The notes beneath the pieces were generated by a model. It made no database searches. It saw nothing but the letters and a program-made list of their open reading frames with translations, and was not told the origin of the DNA. From Flavobacteriaceae bacterium GF1 (GTDB taxonomy: Bacteria > Bacteroidota > Bacteroidia > Flavobacteriales > Flavobacteriaceae): a stretch of 64,000 bases of DNA. Each line of letters begins with the position of its first letter. Positions within the stretch are counted from its first letter, which is position 1. Shown piece after piece: positions 28,311 through 33,494 of the stretch. The stretch spans positions 124,001 to 188,000 of the forward strand of contig WNKP01000007.1 in assembly GCA_009797885.1 (NCBI GenBank), in the 5' to 3' direction. The position numbers and the translations under genes are program-made.

Positions 28311-29204
28311 TCAACTGGTAAGTTCCGTGAACAAACTCTCCAAATTCTTGCTTTTTCGGCTTAGCTGTAGGGTTTTTAATTGATTGTCATGCGCAAAATC
28401 AAAGACGGCGGGACGCATATCCTGGTCGGTGTTGAAGACAATTTCGTAGACAAATCCACCAGTATTCCTTACGGCGGATACATTGGGCAATTGATGTAAC
28501 AATACTTCCTCTACACGATAATCAAACTCAACTTCAATGATCTGGTCCTCTACCTTCCTAAGTTCTTCCATCTTTTTATCGGCAACAATTTCACCCTTGT
28601 TGATAATGATGACCCGATCGCAAACCGCTTCCACTTCCTTCATAATATGTGTGGAGAATAGAATGGTTTTATGTTTGCCGATTTCACGAATAAGTTTACG
28701 TATGTCTACCAATTGATTGGGGTCCAAACCCGTTGTGGGCTCGTCCAAAATCAGAACTTCCGGTTCATGCAATAGGGCAGCGGCCAAACCAACACGCTGG
28801 CGATAGCCTTTAGAGAGCTTTCCTATGGTTTTATGGGCCTCGGGAGTCAATCCCGTTTGTTGGATGACCTCTGCTATCCTGGATTTTGACACCTTGTACA
28901 CTTCCGCATTAAAAGCCAGATATTCTTTTATGTACATATCCAAATAGAGCGGGTTGTGCTCAGGCAGATAACCAATGCTTTTTTGAACTTTGCGCATTTC
29001 CTTGCCAACATCAAACCCATTGACTTTTGCAGTGCCTTGATCTGCCTGATAATAGGTGGTCAAAATCCGCATCATGGTGGATTTTCCAGCACCATTGGGA
29101 CCTAAAAACCCTACTATTTCACCCTTTTGGATTTCAAAAGAGACGTTGTTCAATGCTATTTGCCTACCAAATGTTTTGGTGATTTTTTGGGCTACGATGG
29201 ACAT
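28311..29204 (-). CDS. gldA: Gliding motility ABC transporter ATP-binding protein GldA
   Basis: A 297-residue ABC ATPase. Walker A is GPNGAGKST near residue 37, the signature is LSKGYRQRVGLA near 130, Walker B is VLILDEPTTGLDP near 153, and the H-loop is FSTHIMKEVEAV near 185. The length and the C-terminal extension after residue 220 fit GldA. In flavobacteria it works with GldF and GldG as an ABC system needed for gliding in some species. gldF and gldG are not in this window; gldB and gldC are, 25 kb away. Confidence 0.85.
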   Translation of the reverse strand: MSIVAQKITKTFGRQIALNNVSFEIQKGEIVGFLGPNGAGKSTMMRILTTYYQADQGTAKVNGFDVGKEMRKVQKSIGYLPEHNPLYLDMYIKEYLAFNAEVYKVSKSRIAEVIQQTGLTPEAHKTIGKLSKGYRQRVGLAAALLHEPEVLILDEPTTGLDPNQLVDIRKLIREIGKHKTILFSTHIMKEVEAVCDRVIIINKGEIVADKKMEELRKVEDQIIEVEFDYRVEEVLLHQLPNVSAVRNTGGFVYEIVFNTDQDMRPAVFDFAHDNQLKTLQLSRKSKNLESLFTELTS

Positions 29205-29440
29205 AAAGTGGAATTTGGTTTCAAAAATAGATATTTCTAATAAGGGATGGATCGTCCTCTACATTTCAAAAAGCAACTCCCCTCCGCAGCTCGCAAAAAA
29301 TCCCATATTCTAAATTTATTCGTGAAATGGTTTCAGAATAACCAAAGAATTGAACAAAATCAAAAAATATCAAAAAAATTCCATCATTCTTTTTGAATTT
29401 TGAAAGGAATACCCAATCTTAGCCAAGAATTTAAGTTTAC
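29205..29440. other. Intergenic region between gldA and the aromatic leader
   Basis: 236 bases between the divergent gldA gene and the leader peptide. It is AT-rich. CAAAAATA at 29222-29229 is the reverse complement of a TAnnTTTG-type -7 box and may serve gldA. TAAGTTTA at 29432-29439, one base off the -7 consensus, lies right before the leader ATG, but no -33 element is found at normal distance. I see no gene. Confidence 0.5.
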
Positions 29441-29512
29441 ATGAAGAATACTTATTTCTGGAACGGTTTTTATTTCTACTTCTTTTATCGAGGGGGTACG
29501 GGACTGTTCTAG
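29441..29512 (+). CDS. Aromatic leader peptide (attenuator control peptide) of the pheA operon
   Basis: A 23-codon frame beginning ATG AAG AAT and ending in TAG at 29510. The peptide starts MKNTYFWNGFYFYFFY and has 11 aromatic residues out of 23 (six Phe, four Tyr, one Trp), concentrated in codons 5-16. It lies 57 bases before pheA, the first gene of a Phe/Tyr operon, and directly upstream of a terminator with a mutually exclusive antiterminator. This matches a ribosome-stalling leader that senses charged tRNA-Phe and tRNA-Tyr. It is too short for routine gene finders. Confidence 0.88.
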   Translation: MKNTYFWNGFYFYFFYRGGTGLF

Positions 29513-29543
29513 TGATAGCTAAATATAGAAAGTATAAGTCCCG
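29499..29543 (+). promoter_or_regulatory. Antiterminator pairing of the pheA attenuator
   Basis: CGGGACT at 29499-29505, inside codons 20-22 of the leader peptide, is perfectly complementary to AGTCCCG at 29537-29543, which is also the left arm of the terminator. The seven-pair antiterminator is all Watson-Crick. A ribosome stalled in the aromatic codons leaves CGGGACT free and lets the antiterminator form; a ribosome at the leader stop covers it and lets the terminator form. Confidence 0.8.
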
Positions 29544-29567
29544 GAATTCGTTCGGGGCTTTTTTTTT
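29537..29567 (+). terminator. Rho-independent terminator (attenuator) before pheA
   Basis: Stem AGTCCCG (29537-29543) with CGGGGCT (29553-29559), seven pairs with one G-U, a nine-base loop, and a run of nine T at 29559-29567. It ends two bases before the pheA ATG, so termination here keeps the whole aromatic operon off. Confidence 0.92.
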
Positions 29568-29569
29568 GA

Positions 29570-30400
29570 ATGAAACTGAAGGTAGCCATACAAGGTATTA
29601 AAGGGAGTAACCATCATCAAGTAGCCACGGAGTTCCTTGGTAAGGATATTGAATTGGTGGAATGTTTGTCCTTTGATAAACTAATTGACCGTGTTTTAGA
29701 CGGGACAGCGGACAAAGGGGTAATGGCCATTGAAAATTCCATAGCCGGTTCCATAATTCCCAACTACAATCTGGTGTACCACAATAACATTCACATTATT
29801 GGGGAACACTATCTGAGTATCCATCATAACTTAATGGTATTAAAAGGGCAGACGCTGGAACAGATTAAAGAGGTGAGAACCCACCCCATGGCCCTCTTGC
29901 AGTGTATGGAATTTTTAAAGCAATACCCCCAGTTGAAATTGGTGGAGGATGTGGACACTGCCGAAACAGCACGTCAAATACAGGAGAAACAATTAAAACA
30001 CGTAGCTGCGATAGCCCCAACGGTGGCCGCGGAACTTTATGGGTTGGACATCATTGCCCCGGAAATCCAGACCATAAAAAACAATGCTACCCGTTTCATT
30101 ATACTGAAAAAGCAGAACAAGGTCTTGCCCAAGGAAGAAATCAATAAAGCATCACTTCGCTTTATTACCGATCATAAACGTGGGAGTTTGGCAACAGTGT
30201 TGAACGTTATGAGCGACTGCAATATGAACCTTACCAAAATACAGTCACTTCCAGTAATTGAGACCCCTTGGAAATATGCCTTTTTTGTGGATGTCACTTT
30301 TGAAAAGTACGACCATTTTAACAAGGCAAAGTCCTTGTTGGAGATTATGTCGGAGGATTTCAGGGTATTGGGGGAATATAAAAATGCGTTAATAGGATGA
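29570..30400 (+). CDS. pheA: Prephenate dehydratase
   Basis: A 276-residue enzyme converting prephenate to phenylpyruvate for phenylalanine synthesis. The catalytic region ends with NNATRFIIL near residue 175 (the TRF motif), after VMAIENSIAGSI near 57. An ACT domain occupies about residues 193-276. There the usual Phe-binding ESRP motif is replaced by QSLP (residues 225-228), and the GALV motif by GSLA, so Phe feedback may be weak or different. There is no fused chorismate mutase; that activity is supplied by the fourth gene. It is the first gene after the attenuator and overlaps the next by four bases (ATGA). Confidence 0.95.
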   Translation: MKLKVAIQGIKGSNHHQVATEFLGKDIELVECLSFDKLIDRVLDGTADKGVMAIENSIAGSIIPNYNLVYHNNIHIIGEHYLSIHHNLMVLKGQTLEQIKEVRTHPMALLQCMEFLKQYPQLKLVEDVDTAETARQIQEKQLKHVAAIAPTVAAELYGLDIIAPEIQTIKNNATRFIILKKQNKVLPKEEINKASLRFITDHKRGSLATVLNVMSDCNMNLTKIQSLPVIETPWKYAFFVDVTFEKYDHFNKAKSLLEIMSEDFRVLGEYKNALIG

Positions 30401-31539
30401 TTACGGCAAAACGATTGGATAGCGTCCAGGAATATTACTTCTCCAAGAAATTACGTGAGGTACGCGGACTTGTTGCAAAGGGTAGACCAATAATCAATAT
30501 GGGAATTGGCTCCCCTGATCTGGCACCGCCACCCCAGGCATTAAAAGGGTTGAGTGCAACACTCCACCAAGAGGGTGCGCATCAGTACCAGAGCTATCAG
30601 GGATTACCGGAATTACGGGAAGCTATGGCAGATTTTTATAAAGAACGCTTTGGGGTTACCGTAAATCCCCAGAACGAATTGTTGCCCCTAATAGGTTCCA
30701 AGGAAGGTATTATGCACATTAGCCTTGCCTTCCTGAATGTAGGTGATGGGGTTCTGGTACCCAATCCCGGTTATCCTACCTACACTTCCGTAACGAGGTT
30801 GATTGGCGCCATTCCAATGGAATATGACCTAACGGAAGAAAATGGTTGGTTGCCGGATTTGGAGGCCATTGAACAAATGGACCTGTCCAAGGTCAAGCTC
30901 ATGTGGATCAGCTATCCCAATATGCCCACCGGAGCCAAGATCACCATGGATAAAATGGAAGTATTGTTGACATTTGCCCGTAAACACAATATTTTATTGG
31001 TAAATGATAATCCCTACAGCTTTGTTCTGAATGATGCGCCTACAAGTATCTTACAAATTTCAGGGGCCAAGGACCATGCTTTGGAATTGAATTCCCTGAG
31101 TAAAACATTTAATCTCGCTGGTTGGCGAGTAGGTATGGTCATGGGAAGTGCAGAACATATCCTGGCGGTGCTAAAGGTGAAAAGCAATATGGATTCCGGA
31201 ATGTTTTATGGAATCCAAAAAGGGGCAATTTCGGCATTGCACAGCGGAAAAGGTTGGTTTCAACAGCTGAATGAAACCTATAACGCCAGAAGGGAACTGA
31301 TGTTCCAGTTAGTGGACAAATTGGAATGCACCTACGATACGGACGCGGCCGGAATGTTTGTTTGGGCCAAGTTGCCCAAAGGGGCAAAACCATCTGAGGA
31401 TTTTATAGACGAAGTCCTGTATGACAAGGACATTTTCATTGCCCCCGGAACCATATTCGGCAGTAATGGAGAAGGGTATATTCGATTTTCACTATGTGTG
31501 AAAAAGGAAGAAATCAAAAAGGCCATAGCGCGATTTTAG
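30397..31539 (+). CDS. Class I/II aminotransferase (probably aromatic / prephenate-linked)
   Basis: A 380-residue PLP enzyme. The fold-type I motifs are VPNPGYPTY near residue 122, WISYPNMPTGAK near 168, NSLSKTFNLAGWRVGM near 230 with the PLP lysine, and a C-terminal IRFSLCV arginine that binds the substrate carboxylate. Within the pheA-tyrA operon, its likely job is transamination of phenylpyruvate and hydroxyphenylpyruvate (or of prephenate). Homologues include aspartate and LL-diaminopimelate aminotransferases, so the substrate is inferred from context. Confidence 0.88.
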   Translation: MITAKRLDSVQEYYFSKKLREVRGLVAKGRPIINMGIGSPDLAPPPQALKGLSATLHQEGAHQYQSYQGLPELREAMADFYKERFGVTVNPQNELLPLIGSKEGIMHISLAFLNVGDGVLVPNPGYPTYTSVTRLIGAIPMEYDLTEENGWLPDLEAIEQMDLSKVKLMWISYPNMPTGAKITMDKMEVLLTFARKHNILLVNDNPYSFVLNDAPTSILQISGAKDHALELNSLSKTFNLAGWRVGMVMGSAEHILAVLKVKSNMDSGMFYGIQKGAISALHSGKGWFQQLNETYNARRELMFQLVDKLECTYDTDAAGMFVWAKLPKGAKPSEDFIDEVLYDKDIFIAPGTIFGSNGEGYIRFSLCVKKEEIKKAIARF

Positions 31540-31540
31540 T

Positions 31541-32410
31541 ATGGACAGTATAGTTATTGTGGGCATTGGTTTGATCGGGGGATCTTTTGCAAAGGGGTTA
31601 AAACGCTTGTTTCCGGAATCCAGGATCATTGGATTTGACAAGGATGAAAATAACCTTTCCGAAGCTTTGCAATTGGGATTGATTGATGAAAAGGGAACGG
31701 ACCGTACCTTAAATAGTGCCAATATGGTACTGTTAGCGATTCCCGTAGATGCGTTGGTGAATGAACTTCCCAAAATCCTGGACAACGTAAGTGATGATTG
31801 CTTAGTGCTGGATGCAGGCTCTACCAAGGCCGCCATTTGCCAAAGTGTGGAAAACCATCCCAAGAGAAGGAATTTTTTGGCATGCCATCCTATTGCGGGA
31901 ACGGAGTTTTCCGGACCTTCTGCGGCTTTTGATGGCTTGTACGACGGAAAGACGAACATTATTTGTGAAGTGGAAAAAACGGCGTTTAAGTTACAGGAAA
32001 AAGCATTGGAACTTTTCCAAAAACTGGGAATGCGTATCCGCTATATGAACCCTGAAGCACACGATAAGCACATTGCCTATGTGTCGCATTTATCCCACAT
32101 TAGTTCATTTATGTTGGGAAAGACCGTAATAAGGGAAGAACAGAACGAACGGGATATTTTTGATATGGCCGGAAGTGGATTTGAAAGCACGGTCCGCCTG
32201 GCGAAAAGCTCACCGGATATGTGGACCCCAATTTTTGAACAGAACAAGGATAATGTGGTCAAGAGCTTGGAAGAGTACATAAAAAATTTGGAGTCCTTTA
32301 AACAGCTTATGGAAGAGAACGACTTTAAGGGAATTCATGATCAAATGAACAATACCAATAGAATAAAGCAAATTTTAAAAGGAATACCACTTACTAAAAC
32401 ACCTAAATGA
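31541..32410 (+). CDS. tyrA: Prephenate dehydrogenase
   Basis: A 289-residue NAD(P)-dependent enzyme converting prephenate to 4-hydroxyphenylpyruvate for tyrosine. The nucleotide loop is VGIGLIGGSFAKGL at residues 5-18, LACHPIAGTEFSGP near 110 carries the catalytic histidine and nearby GTE, and AYVSHLSHISSF near 185 is the second catalytic-region motif. It lacks the fused chorismate mutase and any ACT domain. It follows the aminotransferase with a one-base gap and precedes the DAHP synthase by one base, so the operon is tightly packed. Confidence 0.94.
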   Translation: MDSIVIVGIGLIGGSFAKGLKRLFPESRIIGFDKDENNLSEALQLGLIDEKGTDRTLNSANMVLLAIPVDALVNELPKILDNVSDDCLVLDAGSTKAAICQSVENHPKRRNFLACHPIAGTEFSGPSAAFDGLYDGKTNIICEVEKTAFKLQEKALELFQKLGMRIRYMNPEAHDKHIAYVSHLSHISSFMLGKTVIREEQNERDIFDMAGSGFESTVRLAKSSPDMWTPIFEQNKDNVVKSLEEYIKNLESFKQLMEENDFKGIHDQMNNTNRIKQILKGIPLTKTPK

Positions 32411-32411
32411 A

Positions 32412-33494
32412 ATGGAAAATTCAAAGGAATTAAGAACATGGTTGGATGATTTGCAGTTGCCTCATCCACTGGTGATTGCCGGGCCTTGTAGTGCGGAAAC
32501 CGAAGATCAAGTATTGCATATTGCACATGAACTTAAGGATTCTGACGTAAGTTACTATCGCGCAGGAATATGGAAACCACGGACAAGACCGGGAAATTTT
32601 GAAGGTGTAGGTGCCATAGGCCTTAAATGGCTGCAAAAAGTCAAGGAAGAAACAGGTTTGAAAACGGCCACCGAGGTCGCCAATAGGACACATGTGGATT
32701 TGGCTTTGGAGCATGATATCGATTTGTTATGGATAGGTGCCCGTTCCACAGTAAGCCCATTTATAGTTCAGGAGATTGCAGATGCCCTAAAAGGTACGGA
32801 CAAGGTGGTTTTGGTCAAAAACCCGGTCAACCCGGATTTGTCCCTTTGGTTGGGGGCAGTGGAACGTTTATCCAAGTCCAATATCAAAAAATTGGGGGTT
32901 ATCCATCGAGGGTTTTCCACGTATCAGAAAACAAAGTACAGGAACATTCCCGAATGGCAATTGGCTATTGAATTGCAGACCAAGTTTCCCGATTTGCCAT
33001 TGATAAACGATCCCAGTCATATTACTGGAAAACGTGAATTGGTATTTGACATTTCACAGACCGCACTGGACCTAAATTTTGATGGATTGATGATCGAAAC
33101 CCACATTGATCCGGATAATGCTTGGAGTGATGCCGCACAACAAGTAACACCCACCTCGTTAAAACAAATGTTCAAAGACTTAAAAATGCGGAAAGAAACT
33201 GATGAAGCAGCGGAATATAATGCGCAATTGGCCAATCTTAGGGCCCAAATCGATGTTTTGGACAATGAACTGATTGATTTGTTGGGCAAAAGGATGAAAG
33301 TTTCCGATGGTATCGGTGAATTGAAAAAGAAGCGTAACGTCGCTGTTCTTCAGACAAACCGATGGAATTCCATTTTGGGCAATATGATCTTGGAAGGGGA
33401 ACAACGTGGTTTGAGTGAGGAATTCGTCCTTAGGATGTTCAAGGCCATCCACCAAGAATCCATTAACCATCAAGAAAAGATTATCAATTCCTAA
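32412..33494 (+). CDS. Bifunctional 3-deoxy-7-phosphoheptulonate synthase / chorismate mutase (type II AroQ)
   Basis: A 360-residue fusion that catalyses the first committed step of the shikimate pathway and the branch to prephenate. Residues about 15-255 are the DAHP synthase barrel (VIAGPCSAET, GIWKPRTRPGNFEG, GLKTATEVAN, LPLINDPSHITGKR). Residues about 270-360 are a helical AroQ chorismate mutase (LRAQIDVLDNELIDLLGKRM). It provides the mutase missing from pheA and tyrA. Fused mutase domains can also serve as prephenate sensors. It is the last gene of the attenuated aromatic operon. Confidence 0.94.
   Translation: MENSKELRTWLDDLQLPHPLVIAGPCSAETEDQVLHIAHELKDSDVSYYRAGIWKPRTRPGNFEGVGAIGLKWLQKVKEETGLKTATEVANRTHVDLALEHDIDLLWIGARSTVSPFIVQEIADALKGTDKVVLVKNPVNPDLSLWLGAVERLSKSNIKKLGVIHRGFSTYQKTKYRNIPEWQLAIELQTKFPDLPLINDPSHITGKRELVFDISQTALDLNFDGLMIETHIDPDNAWSDAAQQVTPTSLKQMFKDLKMRKETDEAAEYNAQLANLRAQIDVLDNELIDLLGKRMKVSDGIGELKKKRNVAVLQTNRWNSILGNMILEGEQRGLSEEFVLRMFKAIHQESINHQEKIINS

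Follow-up and report, generated by a model that had tools for sequence, protein, structure and literature searches.

Genes and features at the pheA locus

The window, that is, the whole stretch of 64,000 nucleotides analysed here, carries on its plus strand a leader peptide ORF and a terminator (29441-29567) directly followed by pheA, whose ATG begins at 29570. pheA (29570-30400) encodes prephenate dehydratase (PF00800, 198 bits), and a match of its product to the ACT domain stays under the Pfam cut-off. On the same strand it is followed by genes for a class I/II aminotransferase (30397-31539; PF00155), prephenate dehydrogenase or TyrA (31541-32410; PF02153 and PF20463), and DAHP synthase fused to chorismate mutase (32412-33494; PF00793 and PF01817). 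The aminotransferase gene overlaps pheA by 4 nt, and the other junctions in this four-gene operon are gaps of 1 nt. The sequence-only reading of this DNA had placed four genes of Phe and Tyr synthesis behind the leader, which the tight packing and the Pfam assignments bear out. The neighboring gene 5′ of the leader (28311-29204) lies on the minus strand, opposite to the pheA operon. Among the matches listed, the best named relatives of this pheA come from Croceivirga (99% identical), Allomuricauda/Flagellimonas, Maribacter and similar genera. The order pheA-aminotransferase-tyrA-DAHP synthase is found in 86 of the 100 loci of the family Flavobacteriaceae for which downstream sequence was fetched, and DAHP synthase lies close behind pheA in 10 of the same 100.

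The leader peptide and its putative promoter

The leader ORF (29441-29512, plus strand) encodes 23 residues, MKNTYFWNGFYFYFFYRGGTGLF, and is closed by a TAG stop codon (29510-29512). Eleven of its 23 codons specify aromatic residues, namely six Phe, four Tyr and one Trp, so that on its translation it would qualify as the short leader rich in end-product codons that is characteristic of an attenuator. The length and the aromatic count were given correctly in the earlier description of a Phe/Tyr-rich leader, but the aromatic residues are not confined to Phe and Tyr. Phe and Tyr codons occur in all the 124 family leaders collected below (124/124) and Trp codons in 85 of the 124, and because of the latter the sensor may cover all aromatic amino acids, Trp included, the role of Trp in sensing being a guess. 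Joint sensing of the aromatic amino acids would suit an operon whose enzymes make Phe and Tyr and feed into chorismate. The putative regulatory codons form the run F-Y-F-Y-F-F-Y (29468-29488).

A putative promoter lies upstream on the plus strand (29393-29422), with TTG at 29393-29395 and a degenerate -7 box, AATCTTAG, at 29415-29422. The promoter consensus TAnnTTTG is given in a passage of a published transcriptome study (PMC9723704). A box of the form TAnnTT[TA]G is located 8-45 nt 5′ of the leader ATG in 115 of the 124 family leaders, compared with 6/124 and 11/620 in controls; the window's own box departs from this pattern, being one of the 9/124 without an exact match.

Terminator and alternative helices

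Folding predicts an intrinsic terminator between the leader and the first gene (29536-29567, plus strand), consisting of a 10-bp stem with a loop of 5 (29536-29560) and a T-run that ends at 29567, two bases before the pheA ATG; it was also found in an independent terminator scan, and its end is where the sequence-only reading had put it. Within codons 20-22 of the leader, the heptamer CGGGACT (segment 2, 29499-29505) provides the 5′ strand of an antiterminator. It is the exact complement of AGTCCCG (segment 3, 29537-29543), which is common to the antiterminator and the 5′ arm of the terminator, so that the complementarity claimed earlier between the last leader codons and the left arm of the terminator proved exact. 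To locate segment 2, the best complement in the vicinity of the stop codon was taken, and the controls described below ran the same search.

A further hairpin, 1:2, is formed by pairing of 29453-29485 with 29490-29517 (26 bp, -21.8 kcal/mol when folded alone) and hides segment 2; it is more stable than synonymous recodings of the same peptide. In this hairpin the codons W-N-G-F pair with the codons G-L-F-stop, which makes the conservation of these non-aromatic codons explicable. When the RNA is free from 29497 and made to 29546, its best fold is the 2:3 antiterminator (-12.9 kcal/mol). When it is made to 29567, the terminator (3:4) wins over 2:3, and therefore the switch would have to be kinetic, as in the classical scheme. 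The helices 2:3 and 3:4 are mutually exclusive in that both use 29537-29543; such exclusion between antiterminator and terminator had been proposed from the letters, and the alternative folds confirm it, but the third helix, the 26-bp 1:2 hairpin, had been overlooked. Together, 1:2, 2:3 and 3:4 are the complete helix set of a classical attenuator. The folding energy of the region as a whole does not stand out (z = -1.30; equalled or bettered by 23 of 200 shuffles) and is uninformative, so that the evidence for an attenuator consists of the arrangement of these elements and their conservation.

Conservation in Flavobacteriaceae

pheA was found in 130 of 149 family genomes, the window's own included. 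Their upstream regions were scanned for an ATG-initiated ORF with at least 6 aromatic residues (over 28%) and a terminator within 60 nt, and the combination was detected at 124 of the 130 loci, counting the window; an initial sample had given 29 of 30 pheA loci, again with the window. When the six misses were read by eye, two were found to carry a leader, which sits further upstream in L019 and remains visible together with its terminator in L067, where the locus is cut by the contig end. This brings the count to 126/130, and the leader is absent from the four other family loci read (L060, L081, L104 and L121). By eye, GC-rich palindromes occupy its place upstream of pheA in L060, and short repeats of the GACCTG/AGGTC type do so in L121. 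Not one of 1040 dinucleotide-shuffled pheA upstream regions passed the scan, the ORF alone arising in 46 of them, and none of 55 stretches beside matches to trpE, hisG, ilvD or aspartokinase genes passed, the ORF alone being present in 1; a few of these 55 (e.g., L186, L210, L222) are displaced by contig edges. In a second set, the best 80 of 285 named pheA matches, 78 passed automatically and the leaders of two were accepted by eye, one with a GTG start (L288) and the other cut at a contig end (L310). The named 80 apparently include genomes of the first set, and the two sets are not independent.

The peptide itself is variable across the family: its length ranges from 18 to 29 residues, the order of Phe and Tyr varies, and Trp moves. 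An RNA model built from 20 close relatives drawn from the 124 leaders (alignment A1) matches the window's own genome at E ≤ 0.1 only at the known site.

Position of the regulatory codons

Measured from its first base, the last codon of the aromatic run is 11-16 nt 5′ of segment 2 in 117 of the 124 leaders and 13 nt 5′ of it in the window. Over 121 rows, with three outliers dropped, this distance has a standard deviation of 1.25 nt (3.9 with the outliers), and that from segment 2 to the stop codon one of 5.6 nt over the same rows (5.8 with the outliers). The regulatory codons thus lie one ribosome edge upstream of segment 2; judging from the sequences, a ribosome that stalls in the run and only just clears segment 2 would need such a spacing.

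Covariation of the paired segments

Where the terminator arm reads GTCCC, the leader end carries GGGAC in 23 of 27 family leaders and GAGAC in none (0), and where it reads GTCTC, GAGAC is found in 44 of 69, GGGAC in 1 and the G-U partner GAGGC in 18. The match is poorer for the less frequent arms (GTCCT 6/13, ATCCC 1/4, CCCGG 4/8). The mean energy of the 2:3 duplex over the 124 leaders is -10.4, as against -5.2 for shuffles and -6.1 with the arms of other loci; 106 of the 124 beat 95% of their own shuffles and 82 beat 90% of the mismatched arms. Among the remaining 34 loci, seven of them from the family, the corresponding numbers are 19 and 25. These and the family leaders make up the 158 loci of the wider comparison, that is, the family leaders plus the loci of the order and class searches; L134 duplicates L039, and its removal changes little. 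Of the 158 loci, 93 contain an exact 5-mer complementary to their own arm, compared with an average of 5.5% for the arms of other loci; in the other 65/158 the chosen core has no exact 5-base partner. An exact complement of 7 bp with G-U allowed is found in 66/158, in 3-15/158 after shuffling and in 171/1580 with other loci's arms, and because this test is too strict, the duplex energy and 5-mer tests were used. The loci of this divergent set are related rather than independent. In the family-wide MAFFT alignment (A2), segment 2 shifts by a column between lineages, and A2 was left out of the pair counts.

Constraint beyond the peptide is also seen when the codons are synonymously recoded. The 1:2 hairpin has -17.7 in the real sequences and -11.1 in the recoded ones, the real sequence ranking in the best 5% for 86 of the 124 leaders, and the 2:3 duplex is likewise weakened, with the real sequence in the best 5% for 67/124. 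In alignment A1, 94.4% of the cells of helices 1:2 and 3:4 are paired, and versions slid along the alignment reach at most 62.2%; six pairs of these helices show two-sided changes. Helix 2:3 is 95.0% paired (slid versions at most 65.8%) and near-invariant, with one two-sided change, and 102 of 500 shuffles were as good. Because 2:3 barely varies in A1, its covariation rests on the divergent set. The refutation test open to computation, conservation of the leader ORF and of covarying complementary segments in relatives, therefore came out in favor of the original proposal.

Distribution outside the family

Searches in the order and the class gave 52 further loci, of which seven belong to Flavobacteriaceae (one a repeat) and 45 lie outside the family; one wider search matched pheA in 38 genomes, and the eight weakest matches were left out. 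The same scan is passed by 22 of the 45 outside loci and a looser one, with at least 5 aromatic residues, by 27 (11/21 from the order search and 16/24 from the class search). The other 18 of the 45 fail even the looser scan; among them is L159, whose pheA match begins inside the gene. Seven more of the 18, from one genus with genomes of about 0.6 Mb (L151 and L153-L158), have no leader plus terminator by the scan and retain pheA, the aminotransferase gene and tyrA, which would fit a loss of regulation in reduced genomes. From this distribution the attenuator appears to be old in Flavobacteriaceae and probably also in Bacteroidia.

Proposed mechanism and alternative explanations

The predicted structure of the pheA leader is that by which a ribosome-mediated attenuator of the trp/phe/his type is defined, and the pheA operon is very probably controlled by such a transcription attenuator responding to Phe and Tyr. 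In this scheme RNA polymerase would transcribe the leader with a ribosome close behind. With ample charged tRNA-Phe and tRNA-Tyr, the ribosome would reach the stop codon at 29510-29512 and cover segment 2, segment 3 would then pair with segment 4, and transcription would end at about 29567. Under a shortage of Phe or Tyr, the ribosome would stall in the aromatic run and cover part of segment 1, its front edge lying just short of segment 2, so that 2:3 could form first and the polymerase could read into pheA-aminotransferase-tyrA-DAHP synthase/chorismate mutase. Without translation of the leader, the 1:2 hairpin would form, the terminator would follow, and transcription would terminate. Since the run mixes both codons, a shortage of either Phe or Tyr should relieve termination.

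Leader peptides can also act through their own sequence, as in TnaC, where the peptide mediates ribosome stalling in response to a metabolite. A nascent-peptide arrest of this kind, with the peptide itself rather than codon starvation stalling the ribosome in response to a metabolite, would account for the near-identical peptide that close relatives share around YFWNGFYFYFFF...GLF or GLL. However, it is improbable in the light of the whole family, in which the order of Phe and Tyr, the position of Trp and the length all vary, whereas the aromatic content, the distance to segment 2 and the base pairing are constant; moreover, the conserved non-aromatic codons sit in the 1:2 helix.

Still less probable is direct sensing of tRNA or a metabolite by a structured RNA, such as a T-box or riboswitch, with the ORF incidental. 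The region is indeed structured and has a terminator at its end, but searches of seven loci, including four pheA leaders, gave no Rfam match at cut-off, 126/130 loci retain the ORF with lineage-specific peptides, and the 1:2 helix is made of the ORF's own codons. A further alternative is a simple terminator, or a small hydrophobic protein that is expressed, in either case free of regulatory coupling; a terminator by itself would look alike at a single locus. Across many loci the segments covary and the geometry is fixed, and the terminator serves no upstream gene, as the neighbor at 28311-29204 is on the minus strand, which leaves this explanation just as slight a chance as direct sensing.

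Relation to known systems

The E. coli pheA attenuator, pheL, has a Phe-rich leader peptide and a terminator before pheA; its peptide contains Phe codons and no Tyr, and it precedes pheA alone. In contrast, the codons of the window's leader, for Phe, Tyr and, often in the family, Trp, precede a joint Phe/Tyr operon. The window is not a member of the Rfam family Phe_leader (RF01859) by score: with 24.3 bits (E = 0.085 for 501 bases) it stays below the cut-off of 55. A permissive Rfam search of the region also gave eight weak matches to other families, all of them short of the respective cut-off. T-box was sought in the pheA loci L002, L011, L044 and L178, in which no Rfam family reached its cut-off. 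Comparative surveys of amino-acid attenuators by Vitreschak et al. in 2004 and Lopatovskaya et al. in 2010 reportedly treat the same mechanism, to go by their titles, and the abstract of the 2004 survey is said to mention cases from Bacteroidetes/Chlorobi.

Bacteroid-trp RNA (RF01692) is listed in a table of an earlier paper as a likely cis-regulatory candidate in Bacteroidetes (PMC2864571); it has no match at cut-off in the phe (L002) or trp (L191) leader locus of the window's genome. In the passages concerned, the 2021 transcriptome of Flavobacterium psychrophilum places before pheA a 5′ transcribed element that is structured, is conserved in further genera of Flavobacteriaceae and matches no Rfam family; as a separate point, it reports strong clues to leader-peptide attenuation ahead of operons for amino-acid biosynthesis (PMC9723704). 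A pheA 5′ element as such is, according to these passages, already in print for a relative, and the earlier claim that translation-coupled attenuation is little described in Bacteroidota has to be reduced accordingly. The F. psychrophilum element shares family and gene with the window's leader, and the two are presumably homologous; the same passages do not name pheA in connection with attenuation, and peptide, helices and codon geometry are absent from them. Beyond this study, no description of a pheA attenuator in Bacteroidota was found in a body of literature that omits most subscription journals. What is new over the printed element is the helices, codon geometry, covariation and distribution, which turn it into a defined switch.

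Leaders before other amino-acid operons

Searches for trpE and hisG covered 13 genomes each (loci L184-L195 and L196-L207). All 12 trpE loci read, from relatives and the own genome, carry a leader with consecutive Trp codons and a terminator, the number of Trp being three in 11 and two in the other, and all 12 hisG loci read, again from relatives and the own genome, carry an HHH leader and a terminator. The trp leader of the window's genome, MKGKQQMNWWWNNLRILS, with a strong terminator, lies about 170 to 55 bases before the trpE match (L191, contig C5) and has no Rfam match at cut-off; its His leader, MRNKFTHHHIDSIAQAR, also with a terminator, lies about 250 to 140 bases before hisG (L202, C44). 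A named 5′ element of hisG also appears in a passage of PMC9723704.

In the same genome (L226, C33) a Thr/Ile-rich leader is found about 145 to 60 bases before an aspartokinase gene, and likewise throughout L223-L230. These leaders start with MQF and end in TTTPLG or similar, and their end forms a hairpin, ACCCC-loop-GGGGT, with a species-variable loop (CCCCTTTGGGG, CCCCTATGGGG, CCCCTTAGGGG, CCCCCTGGGGG); no clear terminator was seen in L223-L230. They may be a thr attenuator built to another geometry or a hitherto undescribed RNA. A branched-chain-rich leader, MRVNNVILSIIILLCQL, with a terminator lies about 190 bases before ilvD in L208, from another family of the order; among the 13 ilvD loci, of which L222 went unread, only L208 is leader-like, and none is clear in the window's genus.

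Implications for Bacteroidota

A broader view can be held only tentatively, leaning slightly towards doubt: that a single leader monitors at once how far two or three aromatic tRNAs (Phe, Tyr and often Trp) are charged, within a set of ribosome-mediated attenuators (phe/tyr, trp, his and perhaps thr) ancestral to Bacteroidia, where ribosomes are kept close behind RNA polymerase. Translation starts in this group differ from the Shine-Dalgarno model, as stated in part of PMC9723704. If the view is true, close coupling of ribosome and polymerase would be needed in bacteria whose translation does not rely on Shine-Dalgarno sequences. Because attenuation works only with the leading ribosome close behind the polymerase, an attenuator retained across the family and present in further families of the class would make transcription-translation coupling in Bacteroidota directly testable.
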